DNA from: Armatimonadota bacterium
Lineage (GTDB): Bacteria > Armatimonadota > Zipacnadia > Zipacnadales > JABUFB01
Length of the DNA stretch: 64,000 nucleotides
Assembly: GCA_013314775.1 (NCBI GenBank)
Contig: JABUFB010000002.1
Location: forward strand, 1 to 64,000
Direction of reading: 5' to 3'
Of the stretch, positions 917 through 44,170 are shown piece after piece (the stretch's first letter is position 1; every line of letters starts with the position of its first letter). The notes under the pieces were generated by a model. It was not told where the DNA came from and did no database searches. It worked only from the letters and a program-made list of their open reading frames with translations. A program made the position numbers and the translations under genes.

Positions 917-1226
917 GGCCAAACAACTATCTGTACCCGCGAGACGCCTGGGGTGACAGGGCATCATTGCGCCTGCTTCCCGGGCCAGCGTACGCGGCTT
1001 GGGATCATGGCCCCATCCGGGGCCTCGTAGCCAACCATCTTGACGGCCGCACCGCTCCGGCAGGACGCGGCGCATTGCCCGCGTGGTTGGCCGCAGGTCT
1101 GTTCTATGTATTGGGGCGTTTGGTGCCGACAAGCCGGTTGGGGGTCGGTTGCGTAAGGGGTAGGCCGTTCTCACGAAGTACGGTCTCGGTTTGACCATGC
1201 AGCAGCAGCCGAGGAGGCCATTGATT
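917..1226 (+). other. Long structured 5' leader of the first giant gene
   Basis: No convincing gene lies here. It holds a hairpin GGCCCC/GGGGCC (1009-1014 / 1019-1024, 4-base loop) and an 8-bp long-range pairing GCCAACCA/TGGTTGGC (1030-1037 / 1084-1091) enclosing a G/C-rich loop, then AGGAGG at 1212-1217. I could not match it to a known riboswitch class. The RNA structure is inferred from the inverted repeats only. Confidence 0.4.
1212..1217 (+). promoter_or_regulatory. Ribosome binding site AGGAGG that sets the start at GTG 1227
   Basis: A full AGGAGG lies 9 bases before GTG 1227. An upstream ATG at 1197 in the same frame has no recognisable ribosome binding site and would put ten extra residues ahead of the signal peptide. 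Confidence 0.7.
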
Positions 1227-8734: not shown

Positions 8735-11700
8735 ATGGCCGCCTCGACATACAGGTCGCGTCAGTCTCGGGTCCCGATGGGCCTGCTCGTCGCCGTGCTC
8801 ATGCTCCTTCCGAGCGTGGGCGCGCTGGCGCGAACAGTGCGCATCCACCTCGGCGAGCAACGCAAGAGCGGCATCGAGTTCCTCATGAAGCAGAGGGGGA
8901 TCTCCCGCGATGCCGCTGACCGCCTTGTGCGCCAGTATGAGCTGAAAAACGGGAATCGCATCCTTGACTACGTCGACGTTCCGGAAGGCGCCCAGTTGGA
9001 CTTCTGGAAGGTCCGCAATCATCCGGATCCCGCCAAGCGCGTGGAGTTCGGCGGGCGCGGGACCATCGTGGATGCGACCTCGTACCTGGGGCGCAACTAC
9101 AAGGAACTCCTGTTTGGACTGCTCAACACGAGCCAGCGACAGGAGGCCCTGGCCCTGCTCAAACAGGCCCGCGACACCGGGTTCATGATCATCCCGACGG
9201 CTCTGCAGGCCGGGCCGGGGACAGTGAAGACCGCCGCTGCGCAGACCTTTACCATCGGTGTCATTGTTCCAGAATTCCCCCACTGGATCGACATGCGCCC
9301 GCAAGGTAGCGGCCAGGCCGGCGTGCGCTCCGGTACCTTTTACCAGTCCAACGTAACGACCCCGCCTGGGGTCAAGGTCTTTCCCGTGAGGCCGGGTGGC
9401 GGCGGCGACGGTGGCCCCCTGGGAGGCTGGAATCCGTCGGACACTTCCATCCACAACTACAACTGGGAGGAGTGGCCCGGCGAGTATTACGCAGACTCAC
9501 CGGGCGGTCCAATCAACACCAGCGGCATGCCGCTGGGTCTTGCCAACAACACCTCCGCCTGGTCCGGCTCGAGCGTCACTGCGACAACCAATACCGACGG
9601 ACACCCCCACTACGGCGGTGACGTGCGCCCGGGCAGCGTGTACGCCGAATCCCCGCTGCAACTCCGCCAGCGCCTCTACGACCTGTTCTTCAACAAGGCC
9701 CTGACGAGTTCGCTTTACACCTGGTTCTATAACAATACCCACGCTCACATCAGCGTTGAGGGTTCTCCTTCCAGCATCATCGGCTGGATCGACGACCACC
9801 ACGTGCTGGACCGACTCCCGCGCGGTTCCTCAAACTACTATGCCGTCCAGCCAGGCACCCCGTTCTACCGGCCGCAGGACCCGAACGGGCCCGGAATCGT
9901 CCGGGCGAGCCTTTGGCAGAACGGCAGCACCAACGGCCTCACGCTATTCTTCCGTAAGGACGTTGACAACCTGAGCCTGAGCCAAATCCAGCTTACCGCA
10001 TTCCAGACCCAGGACGTGGACAGCGCGACCAGCGGCACCCAGACGGGCAACATGGTGATCGATATCAGCAGCTCGGGCCGATCCACGATCTACGCCGATC
10101 CGTGGGACCACCGGCGGTGGACGATCACGGATTCGGACTGGGAGTTCGTGGACCAGGGCGACGCTACCAAGCGCATTGATTTCGTGCTTGCGCGTGGCTA
10201 TGGATGGTCCTGCCAGGTTAGCGGTCACGCGGCCGAACTGGGCTCAAGCCCCGTCACCTGGAACAACGCCAGCACCGGTTATCGCAACCAGGGCCAAGGC
10301 TGCGGTGACTTCCCGGCCTACCAGCCACTGCCCGGCGTCAACGTCCCGCGGACCCTCGCCTACACGGGTGACACCGTCTCGCCGAGAACGGCCACAGGCG
10401 TGGTCAACTCCGACGGCACTGTGGGCTCCCAGATGGGCAACCGTCTGATGAGCTTCTGCTACTATGCTCACAACGGATCGTATGGCGACCCGCTGTTCTC
10501 CACCTTTAGCTCCAGCGGCAGCGCCTATCAGCTTCAGACCCTGCGCAACAGCAGCGGGGAGACCGACCCCATCGCCGGCTACGTGGACGACTCCCGGGAC
10601 CGCGCCCCGCGCTTCTATCCCTTCGACCACGACATGCGGGACCACAACTTCCCGAACATGGGCGGGTACTTCGGCACATCCTCTTCCTATCACACGGATT
10701 CGCAATGCTGGGCAGACGTGACCCAGGTCATGAAAGACCAGGGCATCACCTACACAAACTATGACCAGCTCATCCTGATGTACCCCGGCGCCAACGACAA
10801 TGCCAGCGGAGGCGAGTCCCTGAATGCGGGCGGCTTCATCGCTCACTCCGGGAACCCGATACCGGTGTCGACCGGAGCGGGTGTTCTGCTGCTCGCCCAT
10901 GAGATCTGCCACAACTTCGGCGCCGGCGACCTGTACGACCTGGACTTCTATACGAACAACGGGACTCCGCCGCCGTCGCCGCGGCTCGTGGAGACCTGGA
11001 TGATGGCGCCGTACACCGTCATGAGTTTCGGCGGCTTCCGCCTTGACGCCTGGCACAAGCTCAATATGGGCTACGCGACCGCGACCAACGTCCTGCGCGA
11101 CCTCGGCTTCACGCGGATTGACCAGGTCGAGCAGACCACAGCGGACCCGGTCATCCTGAAGCTCCCTGCGAACCCGCTCTCGGTGTACGCAAGCAAGAAT
11201 CCGATCAAGCCGGCCGGTTTCTCGGGCACCCAGGGCGACTGGGACAAGCTTGCAGATCCCGACCAATGGCAGGAATACTTCCTGATCGAGAACCGCAATG
11301 TGATGTCCGGTGCCTACGCGGGGGACCGCTCGCCGCGCGGCCTGTACATCTACCATATCGATCACCGCGCCGGCCAAAGCCGCGAGGACTGGCACGCGGT
11401 GAAACTCGTGCAGGCCGATGGTCGCGAAGACCTGGAGACGGTGCAGACCAGCCAGGCTTTGACCACGGACATGCTCAATGGAGACCCGTTCCCCGGTTCC
11501 ACCGCGAACCGGTTCCTGACTGAGCGCAGCCAGCGGCTGATCAATGGCCGCAACTCGCCCACGAGCTGGAGCAATGGCGTTCCGGATTCGGGTGGCGCAA
11601 CCATCATGGCCAACACGCCCACGGACTCCTTCGTGCGCGTGACGAACATCAGCGGCCCCGAAACCGGCCCCGGCGGAACGCCCAACGCAGCCGGCGACCC

Positions 11701-14700
11701 GATGACCGCTTTCATCTACGTGGAGCCGGCCGAAGTGGTTGTTACCGGTCAGACGCTCATTCCGGCGCCGCCGCCCGGGCAGACCTTCTTCGAGGTCCAG
11801 CAGGGCACCGAAGACTTCCCGGTCCTGTTGCTCAATCTGAACAACAGCGGCGTCTACCCGAACCTGTCCACCAACCCGGTGACGATCAACACCCTCCGGG
11901 TCTACGAAGTGGGCACCAGCCTGCAGGACGGCAACATTGCCGTCGCCAAGCTTTATGAGGACAGCAACAAGAGCGGTGCGCTGGAACTGGGGGTCGACAC
12001 GCTCCTCAAGGCCGCGACGGTGACCAACGACTACATCGATTTCACCAATCTCGGCTACACCATCCAGCTCAACGAGGACCGTAACCTCATAGTCGCATAC
12101 GACATCGCCGAAAATGCGCAGACCACACCGACAGTGACCGTCGGCGCGGAACTGACGACGCACGAGTTTGTGGTGCCGAACCACCCCGGTGCAGTACAGC
12201 AGCGCGTCCGACTAACCAGCGCGGGCCCCGGCATCCAGGTGAACGGCGGGGACGGTTACACCTTCGGCGACTACCGCTTCCCGATTCCGGGCGCGAGCAA
12301 TCGGACCGCCCGGATCGTTGAGTCGCCGGACACCTTGACGGTGGATACATTCAACCTCGCTCCGGCCACTGCGGTGCAGGGCTCCTTCGATGTTCCCATC
12401 ATGCGGCTGCAACTGTCGGTGAACCACGATGCCGTGACACTGAGCGGCATCCAGGTGACGCAGACGGGAACCGCGATCGGCGGCACCGACGTCTCCATCG
12501 TCCGGGCCTATCACGACAAAGCGGGCAACGGCGTCATTGACGCGGGGGATACTCTGCTGGGTGAAGCGGCCGTCATCGGGCCCACACAGGCCGGCGTTGC
12601 CAACATCGGTGGCCTGAGCTTCGACGTCACGGATCTGGCGCAACAGCACATCATCCTCGCGGTGAACATTACACCGGATGCCACCGCGGCGGCGACAGTG
12701 CAGTTGCAGCTGCAAGCGGCGTGCATGACTCTGCAGCAGAATCCCACCGACCTTTTCCCGGATCAGGTTGACTACAGCAACTTCCCGCACACCCATGCGG
12801 ATGCGCCGAACCCCGTGACGCAGATTATCCCCGGCAACCGGCCACCGTATGCGCCGCCGCCGCCGAACCATGCCGTCTACGGCAGCGATTGGTCTCCGCG
12901 CGGTGGGGTGAGTGTGGAAGATCAGCAGCCCGTCTGCACCTTCCCGCGTGCTCGCGGCATCAGTGCCGCGCCGCCCAATGACGACCCGGACCCGGATACG
13001 ACCTACGACACTGCCGACCTGATGAGCTATCAGGTGCAGTTCAGCACCGACCCGACCTTCGCGTCCATTGTGCGGACTGAAACGATCAGCCCGCCTCACG
13101 CCAACGCCGACGTACTGACCTTCCAAGTGGGCGCGGCTCTGGCCCCCGCCCAGTACTACTGGCGTGTGAGGACCATCGACACCCAGGGCGCGCAGTCGCC
13201 GTGGTCCGCGCCGGCCGCGGTCTTCGTGGTTGCGAACCGGCCCACGCCCCCCACCGGTCCGTTCTCACCGGTGAGTGTACCCCCGGGGAGCGGGAACACG
13301 GTTGTGAGCGTCGCGCAGCCGACGTACTCGTGGACCCTGGGCACTGACGTGGAAACGCCCCCAAGCCAGATGCGCACCATCGTACAGGTTGACGACAATG
13401 CTGACTTCAGCAGCCCGTTGTTCGAGGCGTGGTCCCAGCCGGGTGCGACTACCAGCGCAGGCTGGGTAGTGCAGGCTGGCGTCGGCTCCGGGAGCGACGT
13501 CCTGACGAGGGGCGTGCATTACTACTGGCGCGCGCAAAGCCTGGATGGCGCGAACACCGTTTCGGGATGGACGACTGCGACCCTCGACTTCAGGGTCGGG
13601 GAAAACCTCCAGCCGACCGCGCCGCAGCCGCCATTCTCGCCCGCGGACGATCAAGTCGTCACGTCCGCCAACCCGACCTTGACCTGGGGCGCCTCCAGCG
13701 ACCCGGACCCGGAAGACAGTCCGTCGAACTTCACGTACTACGTGCAGCTCGATGACGACAGTGACTGGACCGACCCCAACCTGTTTGAGGGTCAAGTAGA
13801 CCCACCCATTGCGGGAAGCCCCATCAGCCTGTCTCTGACGCCGGCGATCATGCCCGTGCCGCTGGCTGACAATGGGCATTACTTCTGGCGCGTCCGAACC
13901 CGCGACCGTGCGGGTGTGGACGGAACGATCTCGGACTGGACCGCGACGCTGAGTTTCTATGTGAATACCCAGAACGACCCACCCAAGGCGCCCACAACTG
14001 GCTTCAGCCCGGTAAACGCCACCCGCATCAGCGATACCACACCGGACCTGAGCTGCGACCCGACGGTGGATCCGGATCCGCCCAACAATCCCGATCCGGC
14101 GGGGCAGGTCGCCGGGTACCAGTTCCGGCTGAAGTACGAGCCGGCTGACCCGGGCACCTGGAATCCGGATGCCGACTTCGACTACCAGTACACATCCGGC
14201 ACAAACCAGGCCGCGGTGACCACCCCGCTGACGGACCCGCTACCCAACGGTCGTTGGTACTGGGCAGTGCGCGCGCGCGACGACTACGGCGCATGGTCGC
14301 CCTGGAGCGTGCCTCTCTACTTCCGGCTGAATCGGCCGCCCACGCCGCCTCCGACCCCCGGACCGACCCCGGACACCGATTGGGTTCCGGCCGACGGCGC
14401 GGCGGTCATACCCACACCGACCTGCCAGTTCCCGCCCGGCGACGACCCGGACGAGACTGACGATCCATCGAACCTGACCTACCGCGTTGAGTTCTCACAG
14501 GACGCGGCCTTCGACACCGTTTTCGCAGCCAACATCTACACGGTGTTGCCCAATCCCAATGACCTGTCTGTCGTCAGCTTCCAGGTGACGAATGCTCTGG
14601 CGACCGGCACCTGGTACTGGCGCGTGCAGGCCTTTGATCAAGCAGGGGCCACCTCTGCATACTCGCAGGTCCATAGCTTCCTGGTGGATAACCCGCCCAG

Positions 14701-17700
14701 TCCGCCACAGGCGCCCTTCGCGCCCAGCGGGAACTCGGACGCGGGCCGCTTCCCGGTCTACGAGTGGGTCATCGGGGCCGATCCAGACCCGGCGGACCTT
14801 CCGGCGACCCTGATTACTGTTATCGAAGTCGACGACAATATCGATTTCACCAGCCCAGAGTACGGCGGCGAAGTGGACAGCGCCCCCGGAGCGGACAGTC
14901 TGGACTCCTTCGCAGCCGGGCTGACCGAACTGCGCCCCGGTGTCACCTACTACTGGCGCGCCAAGACCCGTGATCAGGCCGGGCTGGAGTCCGGCTGGTC
15001 GCCGGTCCAGAGCTTCGTGGTGATCGACAATACCGCCCCGGATCCGCCGCGCAACATGTGGCCCAATAGCGGTCAGGAGACGGACCAGCTGAAGCCCATC
15101 ATCTACTGGGACGCCGCGACGGACCCGGACGATGCGCCCGACGTCCTGCGTTACGAGATCCAGCTCGACGACAATGGTGACTGGAGCGACGCCAACGTCT
15201 GGGAAGGCACCGCCCTGGGCACGGACATTCGCGCGCTGGATGGCAGGGTCTTCGTCGAGGTCGACTCCACGACGCAGCCGGCCAATGAGCCTCTCAAGGA
15301 CAACACCCTGTACTACTATCGCATCCGGACTATTGACCCGGCCAACCAGACCTCGGACTGGAGTACCGTCCAGAACTTCTGGGTCAACAGCGAGAACAAC
15401 CCACCGGAAGCTCCGGCAACCGGCTTCAGTCCCAGCAACGGTGAGGTGGTCTTCAACCTTCCCGCTGTCCTGCGCTGCAACCATGCATTCGACCCCGATC
15501 CGTATGATCCGACCTGGCCCGGCGGACCGTATCTGACCTATATCTACCAGCTGCGGCGCGACAGCGCGCCCACGGACGCCAGCTTCACCTACCAGTACAC
15601 GGTAGTGGCCAGCACGCCGCCCAATGTGCAGGCTCAGGTCCAGGCCATCGTGACCGGCGACCTCGGCGATGACGATCCCAACCACGAGCACCCGTGGTAC
15701 TGGCGCGTTCGCGCAGTGGATGACCAGGGCGCTCAGTCGCCGTGGAGCAGCGTCCAGTACTTCTATCTGGACACCGGAAATCAGCCGCCGACGCTTAGCC
15801 CGTCGGGCAGCTACACTCAGGCCCTGACGCCAAAGTATGGGAACATAGCCCCGCCGACGCACTTCAGCTTCGAAGTCGTCTATGCTGACGCTGAAAATGA
15901 CGCCCCTATCGATATCGATTGGGGTGGCCAGACCGGCGCGGTGTGGCTCGAGCTGGATGGCGATCCAACCAAGCGCATTGCGATGCGCAAGCTGGACGAT
16001 ACCGACAACAACTACGTCGACGGCGTGACGTACATCGCCGGTCTGAACGCAGACGACCCGCTGCTGGGGATCGGCACCCACAGATTCACATTCTATACCG
16101 CGGGATGGATGGTCCAGTGGCCGCCGCTGCCTCCCGTCACCCCGCCCCCGAACTTCAACCTGTGGGGCCAGGGACCGATCATCGGCACCGCCAGCGGAGT
16201 CGCCTTCACGGACGGGGCGTGGGATGCAGCGGCGATCCCAGACCCCGGGACCCCGCCTGACGTAGTGGTGGACGCCGGCTACGAAGAGGGCCTCGATGTT
16301 ATCCGGGTGCAGCTGACCGATACGGACAAGGCTGGTCGCGGCCAGATCCAGGTGACGCTGTATACCGACCCGGGTAAGTCGCCCATGGACGTCGAGACCC
16401 TGACTCTGACTGAAGACCTCGGCCAGCCCGCCGGTACCTTCCGCGGTCAGATGGCTGTCCTCGGGCGCGCGGAACAGCCGGGCGATCCGGAGCTATCCCT
16501 CCCGGACGGAGACCCGGGACGGGTCCTGAATGTAATCGCCGGAGCGAGTGGCAACCTGGTCACCGTCCAGTACCAGGATCCCGACGAAGGCGCGGACTTC
16601 CCGGCCTCCATGCAGCGGGACATCTCTACGGACACGGCCTTGGTCGTGGACACCACCGCACCACCGGCTGTCCCTGACGCCACGCTGCAGCTGGCGACGG
16701 GCGCCAATGCATACGGTAACTCTGACGGTCAGAGCATCGACGTCAGCTGGGCAGGCTATCTGCAGGCCGGCCCACCATATGAGCAGGTCGATATAGTCGG
16801 TTATGAACTGTATCTGAGCGACACCGGCCCGTTCGACGTGGATGTCAACGGCGGAGTGGTGTTCAATCCGGCGAACGCCGCCGTCCTTGTCGCGACCCTG
16901 AGCCCCAACCAGACGTCCTACACCGTCACTGGTTCGGAGCCCAGTCTGGTCGGCGCCGGGATTGCGATCGACCCCAACCAGACCTATCACGTCGCCGTGG
17001 TGCCGGTTGACGAAGTGCCCAACCGCGATGTGCCGGTGAGCAGCAAGGCGGTCACCACCGCCGACACCCAGCACCCGGTGCTCTTCGACGAATCTCCCAC
17101 GGACGGGTCAGTGGAAGTGCCGCTGGCTACACCGATCAGCTTCCGCCTCGAAGACCCTGGAACGGGCATTGACGAGAGCACGTTGCAGGTGCTCGTGCGA
17201 CGGGCGCCCACCGGTTCGCCCGCCGGTACTGGCACCTGGTACGACATCAACGCGGATCCCTTCGGTCTCGGCTGGCAGCGCACCGTCAGCGGGACCCTCG
17301 CGGACCGGACCTACACCTTCAACTATGCTCCGGGCGATCCGAACGCCGATAGCTTCTTCGCGCTCAACCAGCGCGTCGAAGTCCAGGTGATCTGCGACGA
17401 CCTGGAGGGTAACACGCTGGACACGTGGGCGCCGGTACCGCCGTTCACTCGGTTGTGGACCTATAACACCAAGTCCGACCTCAACCCGCCGCAGGTAACG
17501 AACCTGAGCCCGGCGGACGGCGCGACTAACGTCCTGCCCACCACGCCGATCACCTTCCACGTGACCGACGATATCGCGGGTGTTGATACATCCACGATTA
17601 TGCTCCAGGTCAATGGTCAGCCTATCGGCGCGGCGCAAGGCCTTGTGATTGATGACACCGATCCGCTCAACGTCGCGGTAAGCTACCCTGCACCGACGGC

Positions 17701-20284
17701 CAACGTTATTCCCTGGGGCTCCACGGTCACGGTTCGTGTCTGGGCGAGCGATCTTGCGGGCAACGAGATCCCGCAGGCGACACCAGTGGAGTGGAGTTAT
17801 GAGACCCAGGCCGATACCAGTGGCCCGGCCATGGACATCGCGGCGCTGGTGCCGGCTGCCGGCGCTACCAACGTGCCGATCGACACCAACATCTCCTTCC
17901 GGCTGACCGACGACCTTTCCGGCGTTGCGAAGCTGCCGAATGGCGACTGGGATGTCACGGTCTATATCAAGGTGGGCGCCGGTGGCGAGACGCAGGTCCC
18001 GTACGCCGACCTGCAGTTCACTGGTACCGCACGCGCACTGCGCGTCACCTACAACCCGCCGGCCGACTTCAGCTATGAAGACGTGGTTGCGGTGCGTGTG
18101 GTCGCGAAGGATGCGGCCGGCAATGCGCTTGGCGACGAGAGTCCGGTGATGGGCCTCAATAACGGGTTCGAATGGTCATTCACCTGTGTCTCTCCGCCGC
18201 GCTACCGCATCGCGGGGACCATCGTTGACCAGGACGGCAAGCCGCTGCCCGGCGTGGTCGTCACATCGTGGGAGGATGGACAGCAGCCCGAGGACGGTCA
18301 GCAGGTCACCACCGACGGTAATGGCACGTACATCGTGCAGATCCAGATCGGAGGCACGTTCAACCTGCGTCCGGAACTGCCCGAGTACACCTTCGAGCCC
18401 GCCGAGCGTCAGGTCGTGGTTGCCGGTAGCGACGTGGTCGATCAGGACTTCGTGGGAACCCTCCAGACGTACAGCATCAAGGGCAACATCGTCCTGGACG
18501 GCGCAGGCCTTGAGGGCGTAACCGTCTCCACGACCATCGGCGGCGCAACAGTGAGTGTGCTCACCGATGCCAATGGGGACTACGAGATACCGAACGTCCC
18601 CAGCGGACGGTACACGATAACGCCCGCGAAGGTCGGCTACACCTTCCGGCCGGGGGGACGAACGCGGGACCTCACGGGAGCAGACCTCGAGGGCATTGAC
18701 TTCGAGGCGGTCGCTAACACCTACAGCATTTCGGGGACCGTCCGCAACTGGGACGGCGAACGGATGGCGGGGGTGCGCATCTCCGACGGCACCCGCAGCA
18801 CCGTGACGAACGATAGCGGTGAATTCACTCTGGCCGACGTACCGTCGGGGACGGTGGAACTGACCGCCAGCAAGACTGGCTACAAGCTGCTTCCGGAGAG
18901 CCAGCAGGTGACGGTCCCGCCCGACGCGACCGCCGTTGACTTCACCGCATACGTCTCCTTCGCCAATAGCTTCCCGGCGGCGGATGACATCGTGAACATG
19001 ATCGGCGTGCCCTGCCACCCGGCGGACACCGACCCCGATGCGGTATTCGGGGAGCGCTCCGACGTGGTCCGGTGGAATCCGCTGGGCAGCCCGCCCGCCT
19101 ATGTGTTCGCCGGAGTGGGTACCCTGAACCAGGATGTTGTCAACGTTCAGCCTGGTCGCGGCTTCTTCGTGAGGCTGCGCAAGGCGGACCCGAACGATAA
19201 TACGAAGACGATCCCGAACCCCGATCTCGAGGTGGCAGGTCGCCCGGTCACGACCGCACGGCCGTTCACCTTGAGCCTGGGCCCGATCTGGAACATGGCA
19301 GCGAACCCGTACACCACCGCGCTGCCCTATGCGAACATCGTCCCTGCTACGCCGGATTCGGTCCGCAACTACGGTTACGTGTACGATGCGACGCTGCGCA
19401 ACTACCTGCTGGTCTCGTCACTGCCCGGCATCAACGTCGCGCGGACCCATATCCTGCCCTGGGAAGGTATCTGGCTGCGGACGAACGGCGGGGCGGCAAC
19501 CGTCAACATACAGGCTCCGGTCGGGACCAGCGATGCCCCGGCCAGCCCGCAGGCACTTGATCTCGGCAGGGACGGTTGGGCACTGCCCATCGTCGCCAGA
19601 GCGGGTGGCAGCATCGATACGACCACCGCTGTGGGCGTTGGTCCCGCGCTGTCTGGCGCCTTCCAGATCTACAACCCGCCCATGGCGCCTGGATCGGTGG
19701 ACGTGTTCATTCGCTCCGACGACGGAACCGCACTGGCGCAGGATGTGAAGCCGGACGTCACCGCCAACCCGGTCTGGACTCTGACTGTGGCTACGGATAT
19801 CCCGGGCGCCCAGGTTGAACTGAGCATGCCTGATCTGAGCCGCGTGCCCAACGACATGGGCGTTTACCTTACCGATCTGGAAACCGGCAAGCGCATGTAC
19901 GCGCGCACCATGACCAGCTACCGCTTCGAAGTGGGCGCCGCCGGCGGCAGCCGGGACTTCAAACTGGAGGTCGCGCCCAAGTCCGGTGCGGGCCTGGTCA
20001 TCACAGCAGCGGTGGCGACCGCCGGTGTTCAGGGAACAGTGGTCACGTACAACGTGTCCAAGGAGTGCCAGGTGACAGCGGACGTCCTGAACGTTGCGGG
20101 ACGGGTGGTTCGCACCCTTTGCTCCGCGAAGGATGCGGCCCCGGGTGTGAATACTCTGAGCTGGGACCTTACCAGCAGCCAGGGCACGCGCGTACCGTCC
20201 GGGCGTTACATGATCCGTATCAGCGCCGCGAGTGAAGATGGACAGCAGGTGACGGCCGTCACATCCGCAAACGTGAGCCGCTAG
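8735..20284 (+). CDS. Giant exported M6-type metalloprotease with FN3 and Ig repeats
   Basis: 3849 aa. ATG 8735 follows AAGGAGG (8721-8727) and opens a signal peptide (hydrophobic MGLLVAVLMLLPSVGALA, residues about 15-32). Residues 722-732 read HEICHNFGAGD, matching the HExxHxxGxxD zinc site of M6 (immune inhibitor A-like) peptidases, followed about 25 residues later by an APYTVMSFGG segment like the family's Met region. After an Ig-like stretch come eight fibronectin-like repeats (about 1370-2340), each ending in a 'YYWRVRTxDxxGxxSxWS' core (around residues 1475, 1595, 1715, 1842, 1961, 2072, 2193, 2323). Three Big_5-like Ig domains (about 2781, 2918, 3035), three carboxypeptidase-regulatory-like domains (about 3154, 3246, 3330) and the C-terminal module plus FlgD-like domain shared with the preceding gene follow. 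Probably cell-associated or secreted; the substrate is unknown. Confidence 0.88.
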   Translation: MAASTYRSRQSRVPMGLLVAVLMLLPSVGALARTVRIHLGEQRKSGIEFLMKQRGISRDAADRLVRQYELKNGNRILDYVDVPEGAQLDFWKVRNHPDPAKRVEFGGRGTIVDATSYLGRNYKELLFGLLNTSQRQEALALLKQARDTGFMIIPTALQAGPGTVKTAAAQTFTIGVIVPEFPHWIDMRPQGSGQAGVRSGTFYQSNVTTPPGVKVFPVRPGGGGDGGPLGGWNPSDTSIHNYNWEEWPGEYYADSPGGPINTSGMPLGLANNTSAWSGSSVTATTNTDGHPHYGGDVRPGSVYAESPLQLRQRLYDLFFNKALTSSLYTWFYNNTHAHISVEGSPSSIIGWIDDHHVLDRLPRGSSNYYAVQPGTPFYRPQDPNGPGIVRASLWQNGSTNGLTLFFRKDVDNLSLSQIQLTAFQTQDVDSATSGTQTGNMVIDISSSGRSTIYADPWDHRRWTITDSDWEFVDQGDATKRIDFVLARGYGWSCQVSGHAAELGSSPVTWNNASTGYRNQGQGCGDFPAYQPLPGVNVPRTLAYTGDTVSPRTATGVVNSDGTVGSQMGNRLMSFCYYAHNGSYGDPLFSTFSSSGSAYQLQTLRNSSGETDPIAGYVDDSRDRAPRFYPFDHDMRDHNFPNMGGYFGTSSSYHTDSQCWADVTQVMKDQGITYTNYDQLILMYPGANDNASGGESLNAGGFIAHSGNPIPVSTGAGVLLLAHEICHNFGAGDLYDLDFYTNNGTPPPSPRLVETWMMAPYTVMSFGGFRLDAWHKLNMGYATATNVLRDLGFTRIDQVEQTTADPVILKLPANPLSVYASKNPIKPAGFSGTQGDWDKLADPDQWQEYFLIENRNVMSGAYAGDRSPRGLYIYHIDHRAGQSREDWHAVKLVQADGREDLETVQTSQALTTDMLNGDPFPGSTANRFLTERSQRLINGRNSPTSWSNGVPDSGGATIMANTPTDSFVRVTNISGPETGPGGTPNAAGDPMTAFIYVEPAEVVVTGQTLIPAPPPGQTFFEVQQGTEDFPVLLLNLNNSGVYPNLSTNPVTINTLRVYEVGTSLQDGNIAVAKLYEDSNKSGALELGVDTLLKAATVTNDYIDFTNLGYTIQLNEDRNLIVAYDIAENAQTTPTVTVGAELTTHEFVVPNHPGAVQQRVRLTSAGPGIQVNGGDGYTFGDYRFPIPGASNRTARIVESPDTLTVDTFNLAPATAVQGSFDVPIMRLQLSVNHDAVTLSGIQVTQTGTAIGGTDVSIVRAYHDKAGNGVIDAGDTLLGEAAVIGPTQAGVANIGGLSFDVTDLAQQHIILAVNITPDATAAATVQLQLQAACMTLQQNPTDLFPDQVDYSNFPHTHADAPNPVTQIIPGNRPPYAPPPPNHAVYGSDWSPRGGVSVEDQQPVCTFPRARGISAAPPNDDPDPDTTYDTADLMSYQVQFSTDPTFASIVRTETISPPHANADVLTFQVGAALAPAQYYWRVRTIDTQGAQSPWSAPAAVFVVANRPTPPTGPFSPVSVPPGSGNTVVSVAQPTYSWTLGTDVETPPSQMRTIVQVDDNADFSSPLFEAWSQPGATTSAGWVVQAGVGSGSDVLTRGVHYYWRAQSLDGANTVSGWTTATLDFRVGENLQPTAPQPPFSPADDQVVTSANPTLTWGASSDPDPEDSPSNFTYYVQLDDDSDWTDPNLFEGQVDPPIAGSPISLSLTPAIMPVPLADNGHYFWRVRTRDRAGVDGTISDWTATLSFYVNTQNDPPKAPTTGFSPVNATRISDTTPDLSCDPTVDPDPPNNPDPAGQVAGYQFRLKYEPADPGTWNPDADFDYQYTSGTNQAAVTTPLTDPLPNGRWYWAVRARDDYGAWSPWSVPLYFRLNRPPTPPPTPGPTPDTDWVPADGAAVIPTPTCQFPPGDDPDETDDPSNLTYRVEFSQDAAFDTVFAANIYTVLPNPNDLSVVSFQVTNALATGTWYWRVQAFDQAGATSAYSQVHSFLVDNPPSPPQAPFAPSGNSDAGRFPVYEWVIGADPDPADLPATLITVIEVDDNIDFTSPEYGGEVDSAPGADSLDSFAAGLTELRPGVTYYWRAKTRDQAGLESGWSPVQSFVVIDNTAPDPPRNMWPNSGQETDQLKPIIYWDAATDPDDAPDVLRYEIQLDDNGDWSDANVWEGTALGTDIRALDGRVFVEVDSTTQPANEPLKDNTLYYYRIRTIDPANQTSDWSTVQNFWVNSENNPPEAPATGFSPSNGEVVFNLPAVLRCNHAFDPDPYDPTWPGGPYLTYIYQLRRDSAPTDASFTYQYTVVASTPPNVQAQVQAIVTGDLGDDDPNHEHPWYWRVRAVDDQGAQSPWSSVQYFYLDTGNQPPTLSPSGSYTQALTPKYGNIAPPTHFSFEVVYADAENDAPIDIDWGGQTGAVWLELDGDPTKRIAMRKLDDTDNNYVDGVTYIAGLNADDPLLGIGTHRFTFYTAGWMVQWPPLPPVTPPPNFNLWGQGPIIGTASGVAFTDGAWDAAAIPDPGTPPDVVVDAGYEEGLDVIRVQLTDTDKAGRGQIQVTLYTDPGKSPMDVETLTLTEDLGQPAGTFRGQMAVLGRAEQPGDPELSLPDGDPGRVLNVIAGASGNLVTVQYQDPDEGADFPASMQRDISTDTALVVDTTAPPAVPDATLQLATGANAYGNSDGQSIDVSWAGYLQAGPPYEQVDIVGYELYLSDTGPFDVDVNGGVVFNPANAAVLVATLSPNQTSYTVTGSEPSLVGAGIAIDPNQTYHVAVVPVDEVPNRDVPVSSKAVTTADTQHPVLFDESPTDGSVEVPLATPISFRLEDPGTGIDESTLQVLVRRAPTGSPAGTGTWYDINADPFGLGWQRTVSGTLADRTYTFNYAPGDPNADSFFALNQRVEVQVICDDLEGNTLDTWAPVPPFTRLWTYNTKSDLNPPQVTNLSPADGATNVLPTTPITFHVTDDIAGVDTSTIMLQVNGQPIGAAQGLVIDDTDPLNVAVSYPAPTANVIPWGSTVTVRVWASDLAGNEIPQATPVEWSYETQADTSGPAMDIAALVPAAGATNVPIDTNISFRLTDDLSGVAKLPNGDWDVTVYIKVGAGGETQVPYADLQFTGTARALRVTYNPPADFSYEDVVAVRVVAKDAAGNALGDESPVMGLNNGFEWSFTCVSPPRYRIAGTIVDQDGKPLPGVVVTSWEDGQQPEDGQQVTTDGNGTYIVQIQIGGTFNLRPELPEYTFEPAERQVVVAGSDVVDQDFVGTLQTYSIKGNIVLDGAGLEGVTVSTTIGGATVSVLTDANGDYEIPNVPSGRYTITPAKVGYTFRPGGRTRDLTGADLEGIDFEAVANTYSISGTVRNWDGERMAGVRISDGTRSTVTNDSGEFTLADVPSGTVELTASKTGYKLLPESQQVTVPPDATAVDFTAYVSFANSFPAADDIVNMIGVPCHPADTDPDAVFGERSDVVRWNPLGSPPAYVFAGVGTLNQDVVNVQPGRGFFVRLRKADPNDNTKTIPNPDLEVAGRPVTTARPFTLSLGPIWNMAANPYTTALPYANIVPATPDSVRNYGYVYDATLRNYLLVSSLPGINVARTHILPWEGIWLRTNGGAATVNIQAPVGTSDAPASPQALDLGRDGWALPIVARAGGSIDTTTAVGVGPALSGAFQIYNPPMAPGSVDVFIRSDDGTALAQDVKPDVTANPVWTLTVATDIPGAQVELSMPDLSRVPNDMGVYLTDLETGKRMYARTMTSYRFEVGAAGGSRDFKLEVAPKSGAGLVITAAVATAGVQGTVVTYNVSKECQVTADVLNVAGRVVRTLCSAKDAAPGVNTLSWDLTSSQGTRVPSGRYMIRISAASEDGQQVTAVTSANVSR

Positions 20285-36402: not shown

Positions 36403-37206
36403 CTAGACGTCCAGCTTGCCCTCGCGGCTTGCCGTGATGTAGTTCATGCACCACTCGTCCTGGCCCAGCAGCGCCTCGGCTGCAACCATCTCAGCCATGA
36501 TCTGTTGGTCCAGGGGATCCATGATCGCCGAGTCGAGCCCCGCGGCCATGCACAGAACCAGGAACACGCGGTTGACCAGCTTGCGCGCCGGGAGGCCGAA
36601 GGAAATGTTGCTCAGGCCGCAGGTGATGTGGCACTCGGGGCAGTAAGTCTTGATCTCCCGAATTGCCTGGAACACATGTACGCCGGTCTCATGGGAAGTG
36701 CTCAGGGGGGCGATGACCGGGTCCACGTAGATGTGGTCTGGGGCCACGCCGGCGCCTGTGAGGGTGTCGATGAGTTTCTTCGCGGTGGTCTCGCGCTGTC
36801 CGGCCATGCAGGGCATGCCGTCATCTCCCATCGCGAGAGCCACCACATTGGCACCTCTTTCGGCCACCAGCGGCAGCAGGGAGTCGATCTTCTCCTTCTC
36901 GAAGGTGATCGAGTTCACCAGTGGCGTCTGGTCGCCGGTGTAGGCTTCGAATGCTTCGCGGAGTGCTTTTACGTTTGGGCTGTCGAAACTCAGTGGCTTG
37001 CTGGTGACGGCCTGTACGGTCTCCACGAGCCAGCGCATGTCGCTGACTTCCGCATCACCGGTAGTGCCCGGGTTTACATCGATGAACGTTGCCCCGGCTT
37101 CGTCCTGGCGTTTCGCAAGCTCGGCAATGTAGTCCGCGTTCTTGTCCGCGATCGCCTGCTTCGGGTTCTTGCGGGTTCCGTTGATGAGCTCGCCCACGAT
37201 GATCAT
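36403..37206 (-). CDS. Methyltetrahydrofolate methyltransferase, pterin-binding (AcsE/MeTr-like)
   Basis: 267 aa, the size of MeTr (AcsE). A TIM-barrel pterin-binding domain: starts IVGELINGTR, then FIDVNPGTTG (Asp43, Asn45), NSITFEKEK (Asn98), VDPVIAPLS (Asp162) and GLSNISFGLPAR (Asn200), matching the residues that hold methyl-THF in MeTr and MetH. Expected reaction: transfer of a methyl group between 5-methyl-THF and a corrinoid protein. No corrinoid protein gene lies next to it. ATG 37206 has AGGAAGG upstream. Last gene of a tight five-gene operon. Confidence 0.88.
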   Translation of the reverse strand: MIIVGELINGTRKNPKQAIADKNADYIAELAKRQDEAGATFIDVNPGTTGDAEVSDMRWLVETVQAVTSKPLSFDSPNVKALREAFEAYTGDQTPLVNSITFEKEKIDSLLPLVAERGANVVALAMGDDGMPCMAGQRETTAKKLIDTLTGAGVAPDHIYVDPVIAPLSTSHETGVHVFQAIREIKTYCPECHITCGLSNISFGLPARKLVNRVFLVLCMAAGLDSAIMDPLDQQIMAEMVAAEALLGQDEWCMNYITASREGKLDV

Positions 37207-37244
37207 TTTGCCTGAACCTTCCTGTTCAGAAGTATCCGCGCCCC

Positions 37245-38219
37245 TCAAGTCTCGGGGCTGTCTTCGCGTCGGTCCGGCTGACTATACCCTCTCTCGAGCC
37301 CCTTGACCAGTCCCGTCACCGTCTTCAGCACGGGCACCCGCACGCCCTTGCGTTCGGCGGCGCGCAGAATGGCCCCGCAAATCTGGTCGATCTCCGTCTT
37401 ACGCCGCGCGGCGACATCCTGCAGCATCGACGATCGGTTCATGCTCGTGACGTGACAGACCTGCTCCGCTGCCTGCTCCGGACGCACTCCGGCGAAGGGA
37501 CTCAGGCCGCAGAACTCCGCGACCCGGTTCCCTTCGTCGGCAAGGGCGCCCAGCGTCTCCCGCAAGAGTTCATCCTGGAGAAGCGCGCCGTTTGGCAGGC
37601 CGGTGAGAGCCGTAAGTGGGTTCACGGCGGCGTTGATGATCGCCTTGCGCCAGAGGGCCGCTTCGATGTGTTCATCCACCAGCAGGTCGGGCCAGTACGG
37701 CTGCAGGATGGCAGCGGCGCGCTCCGCCGCCGTGTGCAGCCCCGCGGCAGACCCCAGCGTGATCGCTCCTGTGCCTGAGATGACCACTTCTCCCACGTCC
37801 CGGAGCGCGCAGCCCATGACGATGGTACCAGCGAGGACTTGACCCGCAGGGAAATACCGGGCGAGAACCTCCCAGTTACCCAGTCCATTCTGCAGCGTGA
37901 GGACCAGCGTCTCCGGCCCGACACATGGTGCCGCGAAGGCCGCCGCGCTGTCGGTTGAATAAGCTTTGACCAGGACGATGAGCAGGTCAACGGGAGCCAG
38001 GTCCACGGGGGATGCTGTCACCGGGACCCGCACCGTCTTCCAGTGATCTCCGTGGGAGACCCGGATGCCCGTGGCCGCGAGCCGATCCGCGCGTTCAGGC
38101 CTGTGGTCCAGGAGAGAAACGTGAGCGCCGGCCTGTTTCAGTGTGGCTGACAGGCCGCACCCCATGGCCCCGGGACCGACGATCACGATGTGGCCGGGCT
38201 GTGAGCTGCACTCGCTCAC
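37245..38219 (-). CDS. 2-dehydropantoate 2-reductase-like (ketopantoate reductase family)
   Basis: 324 aa. GPGAMGCGL nucleotide loop (residues 15-23), the VLVKAY segment (Lys85), the 'W-R-K-A-x-x-N-x-x-x-N-P-L-T-A-L' catalytic helix and the C-terminal SMLQDVxxxRxTEID motif of PanE/ApbA. It should reduce an alpha-keto acid with NADPH; PanE itself makes pantoate for CoA. Its start GTG 38219 overlaps the upstream TGA (GTGA), with GGGAG 8 bases before. Because it sits in a one-carbon operon with no other pan genes, the substrate may not be ketopantoate. Confidence 0.85.
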   Translation of the reverse strand: MSECSSQPGHIVIVGPGAMGCGLSATLKQAGAHVSLLDHRPERADRLAATGIRVSHGDHWKTVRVPVTASPVDLAPVDLLIVLVKAYSTDSAAAFAAPCVGPETLVLTLQNGLGNWEVLARYFPAGQVLAGTIVMGCALRDVGEVVISGTGAITLGSAAGLHTAAERAAAILQPYWPDLLVDEHIEAALWRKAIINAAVNPLTALTGLPNGALLQDELLRETLGALADEGNRVAEFCGLSPFAGVRPEQAAEQVCHVTSMNRSSMLQDVAARRKTEIDQICGAILRAAERKGVRVPVLKTVTGLVKGLERGYSQPDRREDSPET

Positions 38220-39514
38220 CGTTTCTGCTCCCACTTGTCTAGTTCCGCCAGTTTCCCGAGAGTCGATCCCTTCATGATCTCGGCTTTTTCCCGGGCCTCG
38301 CGTTCAACCACAGCCAGCGAACGGTTCGCAATCTCGACAGCTCTATCCCGCGGCACGACCACCACGCCATCGGCGTCTGCGATGACCCAGTCGCCGGGAT
38401 TGACAACCGTCTCGCCGATCTTCAGCGGCACCCCCATCATGCCCAGGCCCTTCGGATCTCCCGCTGCCGGGCAGATGATGGTTGAGAACGCCGGGAAGCC
38501 CAATTCGCGTATCTCGGCGCTATCTCGCAGGGCGCCGTGGATGACAATTCCTGCAAGCCCTCGCCGGATGCAGGACTTCGTGGCTTCCTCGCCCCAGACC
38601 GCCGGGCCTTCACCGCGAACGTCCACCACCAGCACGTCGCCGGGTTGGGCATGGTCAATGGCCTGAACCGGCTTGTTCCAGTCGCCCGGATAGGTCCAGA
38701 CGGTAAAGGCCGGGCCCACGCAGCGCATGGAGTTGTCGATGGGGCGGATGCCCGGCAGCCAGCCCTTACGGTGCTGGGCGTCCGATACATTGGCGGCGGT
38801 GACGCGGCTGAAAGTCTCCCGCAGTTGCTCTGGGCCGGCGCGCTTGAAAAGATCGGTGGCCACGGCCTCCCCGGTAGAGATCGCGCGAAGGATGCCGCGG
38901 GTCGCTTCGGTCGCGTCTGCAGCTTTGTTGATTGCCCCGCCCACGATCACGATGCTGGCGCCGGCCTGCACCGCAGCCGCTGCGGTTTCGGAGTTGATCC
39001 CGCCCGCGACGGCAATGGGCAGGTCTACCGCGCCCGCAACCTGCTGGAGTGTGTCGAATGGGTCACCGCCGCGCATTTGCACATCGATCGGGCAATGGAC
39101 GCCGACGATGCCGACGCCCAGTTCCTGGGCTCTGACGGCCCGGGCTACCGGATCTGCAACTTCGGCGAGGTCCACCATGATGCGGGCACCGTATCGCTGT
39201 CCGGCTTGCACGCACTCCTCGATGGTGGAGTCGGAAGCCACACCCAGCACGGCGACGATGTTCGCGCCGGCCTGTGCCGCGATCTCCACCTCGGTGCGGC
39301 CGGCATCCATGATCTTCATGTCAGCGATGATCGTGTGGTTGGGGAACCGTTCGCGCAGCGCTCGAACCGCGTTGAGCCCCTCGCTCTTGATCAACGGTGT
39401 CCCGGCCTCAAGCCAGATATCGCCGGCCTGCACAGCTTCTTCGGCAGCGCGCATGGCTTGGCCCAGGTTGATGAAGTCCAGCGCAAGCTGGAGCACGGGG
39501 AAGGATGTGTCCAT
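38216..39514 (-). CDS. Fusion: 3-hexulose-6-phosphate synthase + RraA-like aldolase domain
   Basis: 432 aa in two parts. Residues 1-210 match hexulose-6-phosphate synthase: GTPLIKSEGL, ADMKIMDAG (Asp65, Lys67, Asp70) and 'V-G-V-H-x-x-x-D-x-Q' (His140), the active site for joining formaldehyde to ribulose 5-phosphate. Residues 225-432 are RraA/HMG-aldolase-like with G-A-L-R-D (Arg330, Asp331), the residues required for metal-dependent aldolase activity, so the second half may be catalytic rather than an RNase E regulator. Known HPS-RraA fusions exist in archaea and some bacteria. No phospho-3-hexuloisomerase is in the window. Fusion and neighbours suggest formaldehyde handling. Confidence 0.9.
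   Translation of the reverse strand: MDTSFPVLQLALDFINLGQAMRAAEEAVQAGDIWLEAGTPLIKSEGLNAVRALRERFPNHTIIADMKIMDAGRTEVEIAAQAGANIVAVLGVASDSTIEECVQAGQRYGARIMVDLAEVADPVARAVRAQELGVGIVGVHCPIDVQMRGGDPFDTLQQVAGAVDLPIAVAGGINSETAAAAVQAGASIVIVGGAINKAADATEATRGILRAISTGEAVATDLFKRAGPEQLRETFSRVTAANVSDAQHRKGWLPGIRPIDNSMRCVGPAFTVWTYPGDWNKPVQAIDHAQPGDVLVVDVRGEGPAVWGEEATKSCIRRGLAGIVIHGALRDSAEIRELGFPAFSTIICPAAGDPKGLGMMGVPLKIGETVVNPGDWVIADADGVVVVPRDRAVEIANRSLAVVEREAREKAEIMKGSTLGKLAELDKWEQKR
38228..38232 (-). promoter_or_regulatory. Ribosome binding site GGGAG deciding GTG 38219
   Basis: GGGAG on the minus strand lies 8 bases before GTG 38219; the alternative GTG at 38234 has no such site. Confidence 0.55.
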
Positions 39515-39563
39515 GTGACTCGCTCCCTGGGCGTCGGTCGCCCGCCGCCGACGGGTATCAGGA

Positions 39564-40190
39564 CTATCGCAGACCGGCCGCGATAGCGTCGAACACGGAT
39601 CGCGCCACCGGTTCAGATCTCGCCAGCAGCTGATCTATGGTCTCTCTCTTCTCTGCCACCCAGCCGGAGTCCTTGATTGCGGCCAGGTTCACGTCCACGT
39701 TGAGCATGGCACAGCGCAATGCGGCCAGGGCGAACTCCGCTGCGACTGCCACATCGCTGAGGAGATTGGGGTTGGCTTTCTGACGCAGCTCGTCCAGGTC
39801 CGCAATGATCCCCGCGCAGGCCTCTGTGGCTGCAAGGGGCACCTGAGCAGCAGCCTTCAGCGCCTCCTGGATCGCCGCGGTGCGCGCGGCCTTCTGCTCG
39901 TCGGTGTCCCGAGGCATGGCATAGGCCGCACCCACTTGCGCGTAGGCATCCGCATCGGCGTCGGTGAGGTCGAGGAGCGCCAGGCGGTGGGATTCGAGCC
40001 GCCCGAGAATCGCCTGAACGTCTGCCTCCACGGACGCGAACTTCTCGCGGCCCACGGTGAAATTGCCCGCCATCTCTCCCAGCGCAGCCCCAAGCGCGCC
40101 ACACAGTGCGGCGGCGCTGCCTCCACCCGGTGTGGGCTCCCCGGCAGCAAGGCGCGCTGCGTATTCCCGGACGGTGTAACCTGTGAGCAT
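39564..40190 (-). CDS. Cyclodeaminase/methenyl-THF cyclohydrolase family protein (FchA-like)
   Basis: 208 aa, the size of the FchA/FTCD C-terminal family. The N-terminal PTPGGGSAAALCGALGAAL motif (residues 20-37) is the family's glycine-rich hallmark; the rest is all-helical, ending in a conserved NVDVNLAAIKD segment. Members are methenyltetrahydrofolate cyclohydrolases or formimino-THF cyclodeaminases. With a MeTr-like gene and formaldehyde synthase in the operon, a C1-folate role fits. ATG 40190 has AGGGGGT upstream. Which of the two reactions it does is not decidable from sequence. Confidence 0.85.
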   Translation of the reverse strand: MLTGYTVREYAARLAAGEPTPGGGSAAALCGALGAALGEMAGNFTVGREKFASVEADVQAILGRLESHRLALLDLTDADADAYAQVGAAYAMPRDTDEQKAARTAAIQEALKAAAQVPLAATEACAGIIADLDELRQKANPNLLSDVAVAAEFALAALRCAMLNVDVNLAAIKDSGWVAEKRETIDQLLARSEPVARSVFDAIAAGLR

Positions 40191-40234
40191 GGCAGACCCC
40201 CTGGATCGGGATTGGAGGATTACGAAGCGCCCCG

Positions 40235-40951
40235 CTACAGCATGAGAGCCTCGATATTGCGCCACGTGACCCTCTCGAAGTCCTCTTGCGACAGATTGCA
40301 CACGCGGATCTTCATCAGTTCAATCGCCGGGTGGATGATGGGGCCATCGGAGCCGAAGACCACTCGGTCTGCTCCCAGTCGTTCGATGGCATCCGCGATC
40401 TTCCACGGGCAGGACGAGTATGAACTGTCCAGCCAGATGTTGGGGTGCTCCCACGCCAGGGCGATGAATCGGTCAACCAGGGCTTCGCTGTTGGGCGCCC
40501 CGAGATGGGCGATGATCAGCTTCATCCCGGGCACGCTCTCCACCAGTTCTGTGGCGATGTCCAGCCGGGTCGCGACGTCGATGAGTACGGGCATACCGAC
40601 CTGCGTCGCCTTCTCGCAGACGGGCTTCAGTGGGTCGGCGCACGGCTCGGGCATCTCCCCAACATGCAGCTTGAGGCCCCGGCAGCCCAGAACCTCGACG
40701 GCTCGGTCGATCTCGATCAGGGCCTGCGTGCCCTCGTCGGGCCAGACATGCGCGAAGGGGATGAGCCGGTCCGGCGCGGCCTTGCAGCACCGGGCGGTGA
40801 GATTGTTGGATTCACGGCCAGGCAGGCAGATGGAGAAGACCACTGACTTGTCTATCCCGGCCTCATCCATAGTGCGCAGGATCATCTCCGGTGGGAACTC
40901 CCGGCGATATGTGTCCCCACCCTTGGCGTGAACATGACAGTCGATGATCAT
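40235..40951 (-). CDS. Amidohydrolase-2 family metal-dependent hydrolase
   Basis: 238 aa TIM-barrel hydrolase or decarboxylase. The N-terminal D-C-H-V-H (His6, His8) metal site, LKLHVGE, IIAHLGA and GSDGPI near the C-terminus are in the expected order for the amidohydrolase_2 (PF04909-type) superfamily. Start ATG 40951 has GGAGA upstream. First gene of the five-gene operon (44-base gap to the FchA-like gene). The substrate is unknown; the superfamily includes lactonases, decarboxylases and deaminases. Confidence 0.85.
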   Translation of the reverse strand: MIIDCHVHAKGGDTYRREFPPEMILRTMDEAGIDKSVVFSICLPGRESNNLTARCCKAAPDRLIPFAHVWPDEGTQALIEIDRAVEVLGCRGLKLHVGEMPEPCADPLKPVCEKATQVGMPVLIDVATRLDIATELVESVPGMKLIIAHLGAPNSEALVDRFIALAWEHPNIWLDSSYSSCPWKIADAIERLGADRVVFGSDGPIIHPAIELMKIRVCNLSQEDFERVTWRNIEALML

Positions 40952-42505: not shown

Positions 42506-43645
42506 CTACCCGGGCACCTCGGCCATGTAAATGTTGCATGTTCCACCCTTGTCCGAAGTGAAGAGCACCCAGCGGTCGTCGGGCGAGAAGATGGGGTGCG
42601 GGTGGCTGATCTGGGTCTTCCAGGAGGTATCGTGGCGGCACAGACGGCGCACCCGGCAGTAGCCCTCCTCGTGGGTGATCAGCCCCATCCAGTTGCCACC
42701 GTCGGTGTCTTCAGGGCCGAAGAACGCGCCATCGCCTACCACCAGAGTGTTGTCGCTGTTACTCTGAATATGAGAGGCTCGGCGTCCTCCCGGCCACAAG
42801 AACTGGCGGATCCAGGTGCCATCCGGCCGGATGAAGCAGTCAAAAGCCAGCGTTTCACCCATAGATTTCACCGTGCACTGGAAGCCAACTTCGCCATTCT
42901 GCGTGAAGTACTCGTGCCCCACGGACTCATTGTTATGCTGCGGGTAGAGTTTGTGTGCCTGGGCTGGGGTCTCGCCCACGCGCACGGTCCACATGCGCTG
43001 CTCCACGTGCCCCCAGCTTCCCTCGTGGCAGAACAAGATGAAGTCCGGGTCGGTGGGATGGATACACACGTGGCTGATCCAGGCGTGCTCGCCCCACGTC
43101 GCCAGCGCCTTGCCCGAATCGGTCTCAAGCCGCATGATCACGCAGGCCGGGCGCCGGAAGAAAGTCTCGTGCATGGTGCTGTAGATGACGCCCGTGTCGG
43201 TGCTTGTGGGCGTGTGCTCGCAGTACGCAAGGGCGATGTGACTGCCGTTGGCGGTGATCGTGGGCAGCGCCAGCGAGAACCCCTCGGGACATGTGTACAG
43301 CAGGTCCTCTTCGAGAGTGTCCAAGCGCACGGAACACACTTCGCGGTCAGTGATGAAGTAGGCGATGGGTTTCTCGCCGTGGACGCAACCCAGTTGCGCC
43401 TTGATTCTCGGGCGGTCGGTAAGCTGCACGATCTTTCCCGAAGACAGTTCCAGCATGTGCACCTGGGGCGATCCGCTGCGTTCGGAACCGAAGATGATGC
43501 TCTCGCCGCCCGCGGCGAAGCTGGTTGCGGTAAAGTACAGGTGGTGATCGTGGGCATCGCTGCCCGTGAGCCTGCGCACGCGCACGCCGGTGTCCGGCTC
43601 GATGTACTCCTGAATCTCGGACGCCCAGGTATCGCCTTTAGCCAT
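42506..43645 (-). CDS. Oligogalacturonate lyase-like beta-propeller (PL22-like)
   Basis: 379 aa, seven-bladed propeller style. The 'H-H-L-Y-F-T-x-x-S-F' start, 'H-E-x-F' and HPHPIFSPDDRWVLFTSD near the C-terminus are typical of family PL22 oligogalacturonide lyases, in which several conserved histidines bind Mn2+. No signal peptide, so cytoplasmic degradation of imported pectin oligomers is expected. The start overlaps the end of folB by 8 bases, so the two are translationally linked. The family call is from memory of the fold motifs; other TolB-like propellers are possible. Confidence 0.75.
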   Translation of the reverse strand: MAKGDTWASEIQEYIEPDTGVRVRRLTGSDAHDHHLYFTATSFAAGGESIIFGSERSGSPQVHMLELSSGKIVQLTDRPRIKAQLGCVHGEKPIAYFITDREVCSVRLDTLEEDLLYTCPEGFSLALPTITANGSHIALAYCEHTPTSTDTGVIYSTMHETFFRRPACVIMRLETDSGKALATWGEHAWISHVCIHPTDPDFILFCHEGSWGHVEQRMWTVRVGETPAQAHKLYPQHNNESVGHEYFTQNGEVGFQCTVKSMGETLAFDCFIRPDGTWIRQFLWPGGRRASHIQSNSDNTLVVGDGAFFGPEDTDGGNWMGLITHEEGYCRVRRLCRHDTSWKTQISHPHPIFSPDDRWVLFTSDKGGTCNIYMAEVPG

Positions 43646-44054
43646 CGCCCGGCTCCTCCGATGTGTCTGCGGTCAGGTCGAAGTCCTCGCGACTGCGCGT
43701 GATCTCGACCTCAGTATAGTCGATCAGCCCGGCCAGTGGCACGCTGTGCTTACGGACGCGCACCGTAACCTGTTCCACAGGGAACTCGGCCAGAATGGCT
43801 CTTGCGGTGCTGTGCGCCAGAGCCTCCAGCAACATGAACTTGCGGCGGCTCTGGATGCGCTCGATCAACGCGTACACGGCGCCATAATCCACGGTGCGCG
43901 ACAGGTCATCGGTTTCCCCCGCGGGGGCGAGATCAAGCGCGAGTTCCACGTCGAAAGAGAATCGGCCACCCAAGGCCCGTTCCGAGGGGTCCACGCCGTG
44001 GTGTCCGTAGAAGCTCATGTTCACGATGCGGATACGGTCATCGCTGGCGGGCAA
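43638..44054 (-). CDS. folB: Dihydroneopterin aldolase
   Basis: Folate-biosynthesis enzyme that splits dihydroneopterin to 6-hydroxymethyldihydropterin and glycolaldehyde. 138 aa from TTG 44054 (MPASDDRIRIVNM...), with the conserved FYGHHGV segment, an acidic residue shortly after it, a D-Y-G-A-V helix and 'V-R-V-R-K-H-S-V-P' near the C-terminus. TTG is chosen because AGGAG (44063-44067, minus strand) lies 8 bases upstream and the length is normal. It overlaps the PL22-like gene by 8 bases, an unusual partner for folate synthesis. Confidence 0.87.
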   Translation of the reverse strand: MPASDDRIRIVNMSFYGHHGVDPSERALGGRFSFDVELALDLAPAGETDDLSRTVDYGAVYALIERIQSRRKFMLLEALAHSTARAILAEFPVEQVTVRVRKHSVPLAGLIDYTEVEITRSREDFDLTADTSEEPGDG

Positions 44055-44062
44055 AGGAACCA

Positions 44063-44067
44063 CTCCT
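44063..44067 (-). promoter_or_regulatory. Ribosome binding site AGGAG deciding a TTG start for folB
   Basis: AGGAG on the minus strand is 8 bases before TTG 44054, and the nearest ATG (44018 region, at M-S-F-Y-G) would cut off a conserved strand. This supports the rare TTG start. Confidence 0.5.
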
Positions 44068-44170
44068 GCCGGCTGGAAGGCTGTTGCGGAAAGTCCTGGC
44101 AAGACGGGTCGGGGGGACCGACCACCAGGGCTGCGGCGCTGCACCGAAAGGTTGCAGTCTGCGGGCCTTG

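Follow-up and report, generated by a model that had tools for sequence, protein, structure and literature searches.

A protein that fuses 3-hexulose-6-phosphate synthase (HPS) to an RraA domain, encoded within a 64,000-nucleotide stretch of an Armatimonadota genome (assembly GCA_013314775.1, contig JABUFB010000002.1, positions 1 to 64,000; hereafter, the window), probably supplies ketopantoate in organisms without PanB, and we put the probability of this reading at roughly two in three (0.68). The proposed replacement is drawn from the distribution of the fusion and from its linkage to pantothenate genes. The window lies on contig 2 of a 6.12 Mb genome that is 98% complete (designated G000). 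Protein families were assigned by comparing Pfam and NCBIfam profile scores with curated cut-offs, with which solved structural relatives concurred; PanB was scored as a PF02548 match over the cut-off, and gene absences in the window's genome rest on targeted searches.

Among 61 Armatimonadota genomes, PanB was found in none of the 42 carrying the fusion (class member G042 and phylum member G053 included) versus 17 of the 19 that are fusion-free (Fisher p = 3e-13, kinship ignored). A similar profile was observed in 69 Desulfobacterota genomes, where PanB was present in 0/7 fusion-bearing versus 59/62 fusion-free genomes (p = 1e-7, or 6e-6 without two deliberately added genomes, kinship likewise ignored), and all seven fusion bearers have PanC. 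Taking fusion-bearing genomes from about ten phyla together, just 2 out of 50 have PanB; no PanB (PF02548) was found in the methanogen controls. The fusion tree groups by phylum (Armatimonadota, Actinomycetota, Deltaproteobacteria, Planctomycetota in two groups, Omnitrophota and, further, Elusimicrobiota, Firestonebacteria, Aerophobota, Poribacteria and Thermoplasmatota), so that the independent lineages number perhaps about ten. Bacillus subtilis has HPS and the isomerase PHI, and this control retains PanB (PF02548), which points to the RraA half in the loss of PanB.

The remainder of the pantothenate pathway is kept. PanC was retained wherever checked, and a query combining E. coli proteins with the window's PanE, run against eight genomes, recovered PanC in all eight and PanB in none, the PanE of the fusion operon being the sole PanE in seven. 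Furthermore, eight genomes, that of the window among them, carry panC-panD as a pair with no panB, and PF02548 was matched neither by the fusion nor anywhere else in G000. These observations bear on the alternative that the fusion is an enzyme of the ribulose monophosphate (RuMP) route only, serving formaldehyde detoxification or, in an archaea-like manner, ribulose 5-phosphate supply, while PanB was lost through uptake of pantoate or pantothenate. We regard this as unlikely: although HPS and PHI are both genuine, PHI co-occurs with the fusion (over its cut-off in 39/42 fusion-bearing and 0/19 fusion-free Armatimonadota) and HPS-PHI provides pentose in archaea (PMC11237513), pantothenate scavengers would have no use for the PanC, PanD and PanE that persist here. 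Most of the genomes checked also encode Zwf, Gnd and transketolase, which makes RuMP enzymes dispensable for pentoses and disfavors HPS/PHI as a pentose supply.

In the window, the fusion belongs to a run of five genes:

40235..40951, minus strand: amidohydrolase of the Amidohydro_2 family, 238 aa (PF04909, E 3e-30)
39564..40190, minus strand: FchA-like methenyl-tetrahydrofolate (THF) cyclohydrolase of the FTCD_C family, 208 aa (PF04961, 7e-60)
38216..39514, minus strand: HPS-RraA fusion, 432 aa (TIGR03128, PF03737 and a full-length PRK07028 match)
37245..38219, minus strand: PanE, ketopantoate reductase, 324 aa (TIGR00745; its start overlaps the fusion stop by 4 bases)
36403..37206, minus strand: MeTr-like methyl-THF:corrinoid methyltransferase, 267 aa (NF005719)

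A preliminary description of this DNA had placed five genes on the minus strand with gaps of 44, 49, -4 and 38 bases, and this layout was borne out when the starts were re-derived; Pfam and NCBIfam profiles also upheld the family named for each gene. The fusion is present in 40 of the 41 genomes of the order, and at 37 related loci examined PanE follows directly in the same direction in 31, with MeTr next as well in 28, which takes the association beyond chance. Conservation of these neighbors elsewhere had been named beforehand as a test, and it was found: fusion-PanE-MeTr is kept throughout the order, whose fusion-PanE arrangement, or else fusion-PanC, recurs in other phyla. The five-gene unit itself stood only in part, since the amidohydrolase adjoins the fusion solely in the window's own family and is a lineage-specific neighbor; thus, the conserved unit is fusion-PanE-MeTr, often accompanied by FchA and other folate genes. 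Nor did a single pathway employing all five genes hold, as FchA and MeTr go with a folate one-carbon (C1) module and the amidohydrolase is not conserved.

The PanE encoded next to the fusion scores 252 bits against TIGR00745 (cut-off 141), keeps all the residues corresponding to the catalytic N98, K176, N241 and E256 of E. coli ketopantoate reductase, and is the only PanE match in its genome. With regard to the fusion, its N-terminal domain (residues about 1-213) is an HPS (TIGR03128, 209.2 bits; cut-off 200) and its C-terminal domain (about 225-415) is RraA/HMG-aldolase-like (PF03737, 155 bits, E 2e-45). Over 52 fusion sequences, the HPS catalytic residues of the OMPDC suprafamily (D13, E36, D65-x-K67-x-x-D70 and H140) are invariant, and so is the R330-D331 pair of the RraA half. 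Where the D-X20-R-D motif would begin with Asp, 21 positions before the Arg, the fusion has Glu309, and this Glu is kept in at least 90% of the same set. A predicted model of the fusion (pLDDT 91) resembles the HPS and HMG/CHA aldolase folds.

More than 560 relatives were collected by scanning named genomes, and 80 of them were retained for neighborhood analysis. The fusion has panC no more than a few kilobases away in about twelve loci of Actinomycetota type, five of them ordered panC-panD-UPF0047-fusion, while PanE comes next after the fusion in two loci from Deltaproteobacteria (L157, L177) and one from Poribacteria (L198), as confirmed by Pfam. PHI is a conserved neighbor in 19 loci, mainly from Deltaproteobacteria. 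As none of the 80 neighborhoods contains panB, the fusion occupies the place expected for panB, and a RuMP role alone would not account for the company it keeps with panE and panC-panD across several phyla. It is also improbable, in our judgment, that some other unrecognized enzyme replaces PanB, with the fusion merely co-regulated or acting only as its formaldehyde supplier. PHI and UPF0047 likewise track the fusion, and weak, sub-threshold PanB-superfamily matches occur in three genomes; however, the fusion is the one gene common to all the PanB-less lineages tested, it is itself a putative aldolase lying by PanE or PanC, and no other conserved aldolase was found in the neighborhoods.

Other recurrent neighbors were noted in the same set. 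About 27 of the 80 loci (e.g., L188:5473-5976), from Actinomycetota, Omnitrophota, Elusimicrobia and some Deltaproteobacteria, encode near the fusion a UPF0047 (YjbQ) protein with a length of about 140-168 aa, which in Thermoleophilia sits between panD and the fusion; this protein may share the fusion's pathway. By sequence, nine Planctomycetota loci (L180, L189, L192, L194, L196, L209, L210, L212 and L213) carry a small 6-pyruvoyl-tetrahydropterin synthase/QueD-like protein upstream of the fusion and protein-arginine-kinase/ClpC-type stress genes downstream of it.

As for mechanism, PHI and the HPS domain, working in reverse, would release formaldehyde from fructose 6-phosphate or, alternatively, HPS would hold free formaldehyde. 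The RraA domain, acting as a metal-dependent 2-oxoacid aldolase, would then join formaldehyde to 2-ketoisovalerate to give ketopantoate, which PanE, whose gene overlaps that of the fusion, would reduce to pantoate for coupling by PanC with beta-alanine from PanD. FchA and MeTr would be co-transcribed with the fusion as parts of the folate C1 module. The PHI gene is unlinked to the fusion operon in the window's genome. Such aldol chemistry is feasible, since 2-oxoacid aldolases and E. coli PanE carry out aldol addition of formaldehyde followed by reduction in vitro (PMC10127515). The stronger proposition, on which we are evenly divided, is that the fusion is a widespread folate-independent ketopantoate synthase whose two domains are joined so that formaldehyde from hexulose-6-phosphate goes directly to 2-ketoisovalerate.

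The preliminary description had itself invoked aldol chemistry, namely a route in which RraA cleaves an aldol product, the PanE-like enzyme reduces the resulting keto acid and the C1 unit enters folate or ribulose phosphate. RraA aldol chemistry followed by PanE reduction fits the present results, whereas the direction (addition, not cleavage) and the product differ. Domain content and co-transcription agree with the breakdown of some unknown aldol in this way, yet we deem it very improbable: nearly every genome of the order has the fusion, as would be expected for a core step, the PanE is the genome's sole ketopantoate reductase with canonical residues, and the absence of PanB would go unexplained.

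Several observations weigh against a role of the fusion in place of PanB. To our knowledge, the RraA aldolases described so far act through pyruvate enolates. Most fusion loci outside Armatimonadota have no adjacent pan gene, and many have PHI, MeTr or UPF0047 instead. PanE was not detectable in G042, and two fusion-bearing metagenome-assembled genomes, G067 (locus L149) and G098 (L195), also have PanB, which may reflect bin contamination or a transitional state. Conversely, the well-sampled G044 and three Desulfobacterota lack PanB while being fusion-free. Three matches to the phosphoenolpyruvate (PEP)-mutase superfamily near 22 bits, below the PanB cut-off, were recovered, and a diverged PanB of this superfamily may be hidden in fusion genomes. 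Finally, the counts of fusion and PanB are uncorrected for kinship.

Turning to the folate genes of the operon, the C1 module of which FchA and MeTr are members also comprises Fhs, FolD and MetF/MetV. Many relatives have a folate block around the fusion, of which the window holds a reduced version: locus L201 reads FolP-MTHFS-FolB-Fhs-FchA-FolD-MetF-fusion-PanE-MeTr, and L215 and L216 go on with MetV-MetF, whereas Fhs, FolD, MetF, MetV and MTHFS are located elsewhere in the window's genome. The FchA-like protein falls below the cut-off of the FchA equivalog NF045657 (198 versus 275 bits) while belonging to family PF04961, and its gene adjoins Fhs and FolD in relatives. One further gene of the window is part of this ancestral block:

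43638..44144, minus strand: FolB-like dihydroneopterin aldolase (sequence family; located by Fhs/FchA/MTHFS in relatives)

MeTr, a single-copy gene in the genome, scores 325 bits against NF005719 (cut-off 259) and only 125 bits against the CODH/ACS-linked AcsE profile NF040758 (cut-off 370). ACS (PF03598) was not found in the window's family (G000-G003), and Wood-Ljungdahl metabolism or acetogenesis was rejected for the window's genome on that ground; those genomes of the order that bear ACS have a second, more distant MeTr near it. The nearest solved relative of MeTr, 4o0q, is a component of an O-demethylase. An O-demethylation role is unsupported, as the genomes usually have a single corrinoid protein, encoded next to RACo in a MetK block. 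MetH was not found in the window's genome, and the order is also without it. Two further parts were located in G000:

L097:9055-11668, contig 9: standalone corrinoid protein (PF02607, PF02310) with a RACo reactivator (PF14574); MetK is in the block in relatives
L230:9821-10795, contig 8: standalone homocysteine methyltransferase (PF02574)

Separate pterin, corrinoid and homocysteine subunits thus occur without a full-length MetH, as in a split methionine synthase. In G022, a MeTr 74% identical to that of the window lies directly behind a homocysteine methyltransferase. One 589-aa open frame (G058:C8:77926-79611) contains homocysteine methyltransferase and MeTr domains together, and is an intermediate between the split and full MetH. 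Phaeobacter has a three-part methionine synthase with a RamA-like reactivator (PMC5764234), and a relative of that system is found in Ruegeria (PMC12478193). The corrinoid, homocysteine and RACo parts found here match these systems; therefore, MeTr is probably the folate (pterin) subunit of a split methionine synthase, one that probably serves the whole order. The window's genome has a counterpart for every component of the Phaeobacter inhibens system: MeTr, the corrinoid protein and the homocysteine protein, each separate, together with a reactivator of the RamA/RACo type. Unlike in that system, the parts of this putative synthase are dispersed over the genome, and MeTr shares an operon with the fusion and PanE.

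Elsewhere in the window, a PL22 oligogalacturonate-lyase-like protein (42506-43645) is a neighbor of the fusion solely in families f1 and f6, for no obvious reason. Two giant open reading frames (1191-8516, 2441 aa; 8735-20284, 3849 aa) contain carboxypeptidase-regulatory, Ig-like and FlgD-Ig domains, and both probably encode cell-surface or secreted proteins.

Synthesis of coenzyme A is near-universal. If the fusion does stand in for PanB, many genomes scored as panB-less would make vitamin B5 via a second, non-homologous enzyme, and auxotrophy predictions would be corrected for anammox bacteria, Thermoleophilia, Desulfobacterota, Omnitrophota, Armatimonadota and Thermoplasmatota. Were it a folate-independent synthase with direct transfer between its domains, sugar phosphate would, via formaldehyde, be the source of one coenzyme A carbon in about ten phyla, with archaea among them. 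Replacement of PanB would also assign a role to a fusion whose sole annotation is 'bifunctional HPS/ribonuclease regulator', possibly as the gene for ketopantoaldolase activity, and an enzyme adding formaldehyde to a 2-oxoacid would be useful both in synthetic C1 assimilation and in making vitamin B5. In the literature covered, which left out most subscription journals and all preprints, nothing was found on the function of HPS-RraA, on a ketopantoate aldolase or on PanB replacement.

In comparison with known systems, the two-domain architecture of the fusion is already represented in NCBIfam by PRK07028/NF005442, to which it corresponds over its full length (546 bits, below the curated cut-off of 593); the name of that family gives no pathway, and it is the proposed role that is new. 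HMG/CHA aldolase (PDB 3noj) shares the fold of the RraA half and its R-D pair, but has Asp at the first D-X20-R-D position, where the fusion has Glu, and its known substrate is a pyruvate aldol. With PanB (PF02548, EC 2.1.2.11), the fusion shares the proposed product, ketopantoate, and the position in the pathway by PanE, PanC or PanD; there is no sequence homology between them, and PanB uses methylene-THF whereas formaldehyde is the proposed substrate of the fusion. Ketopantoaldolase (EC 4.1.2.12) interconverts 2-dehydropantoate with 2-ketoisovalerate and formaldehyde, an activity to which, as far as we know, no gene or sequence has been assigned, and its reaction is identical to that proposed for the RraA half of the fusion.

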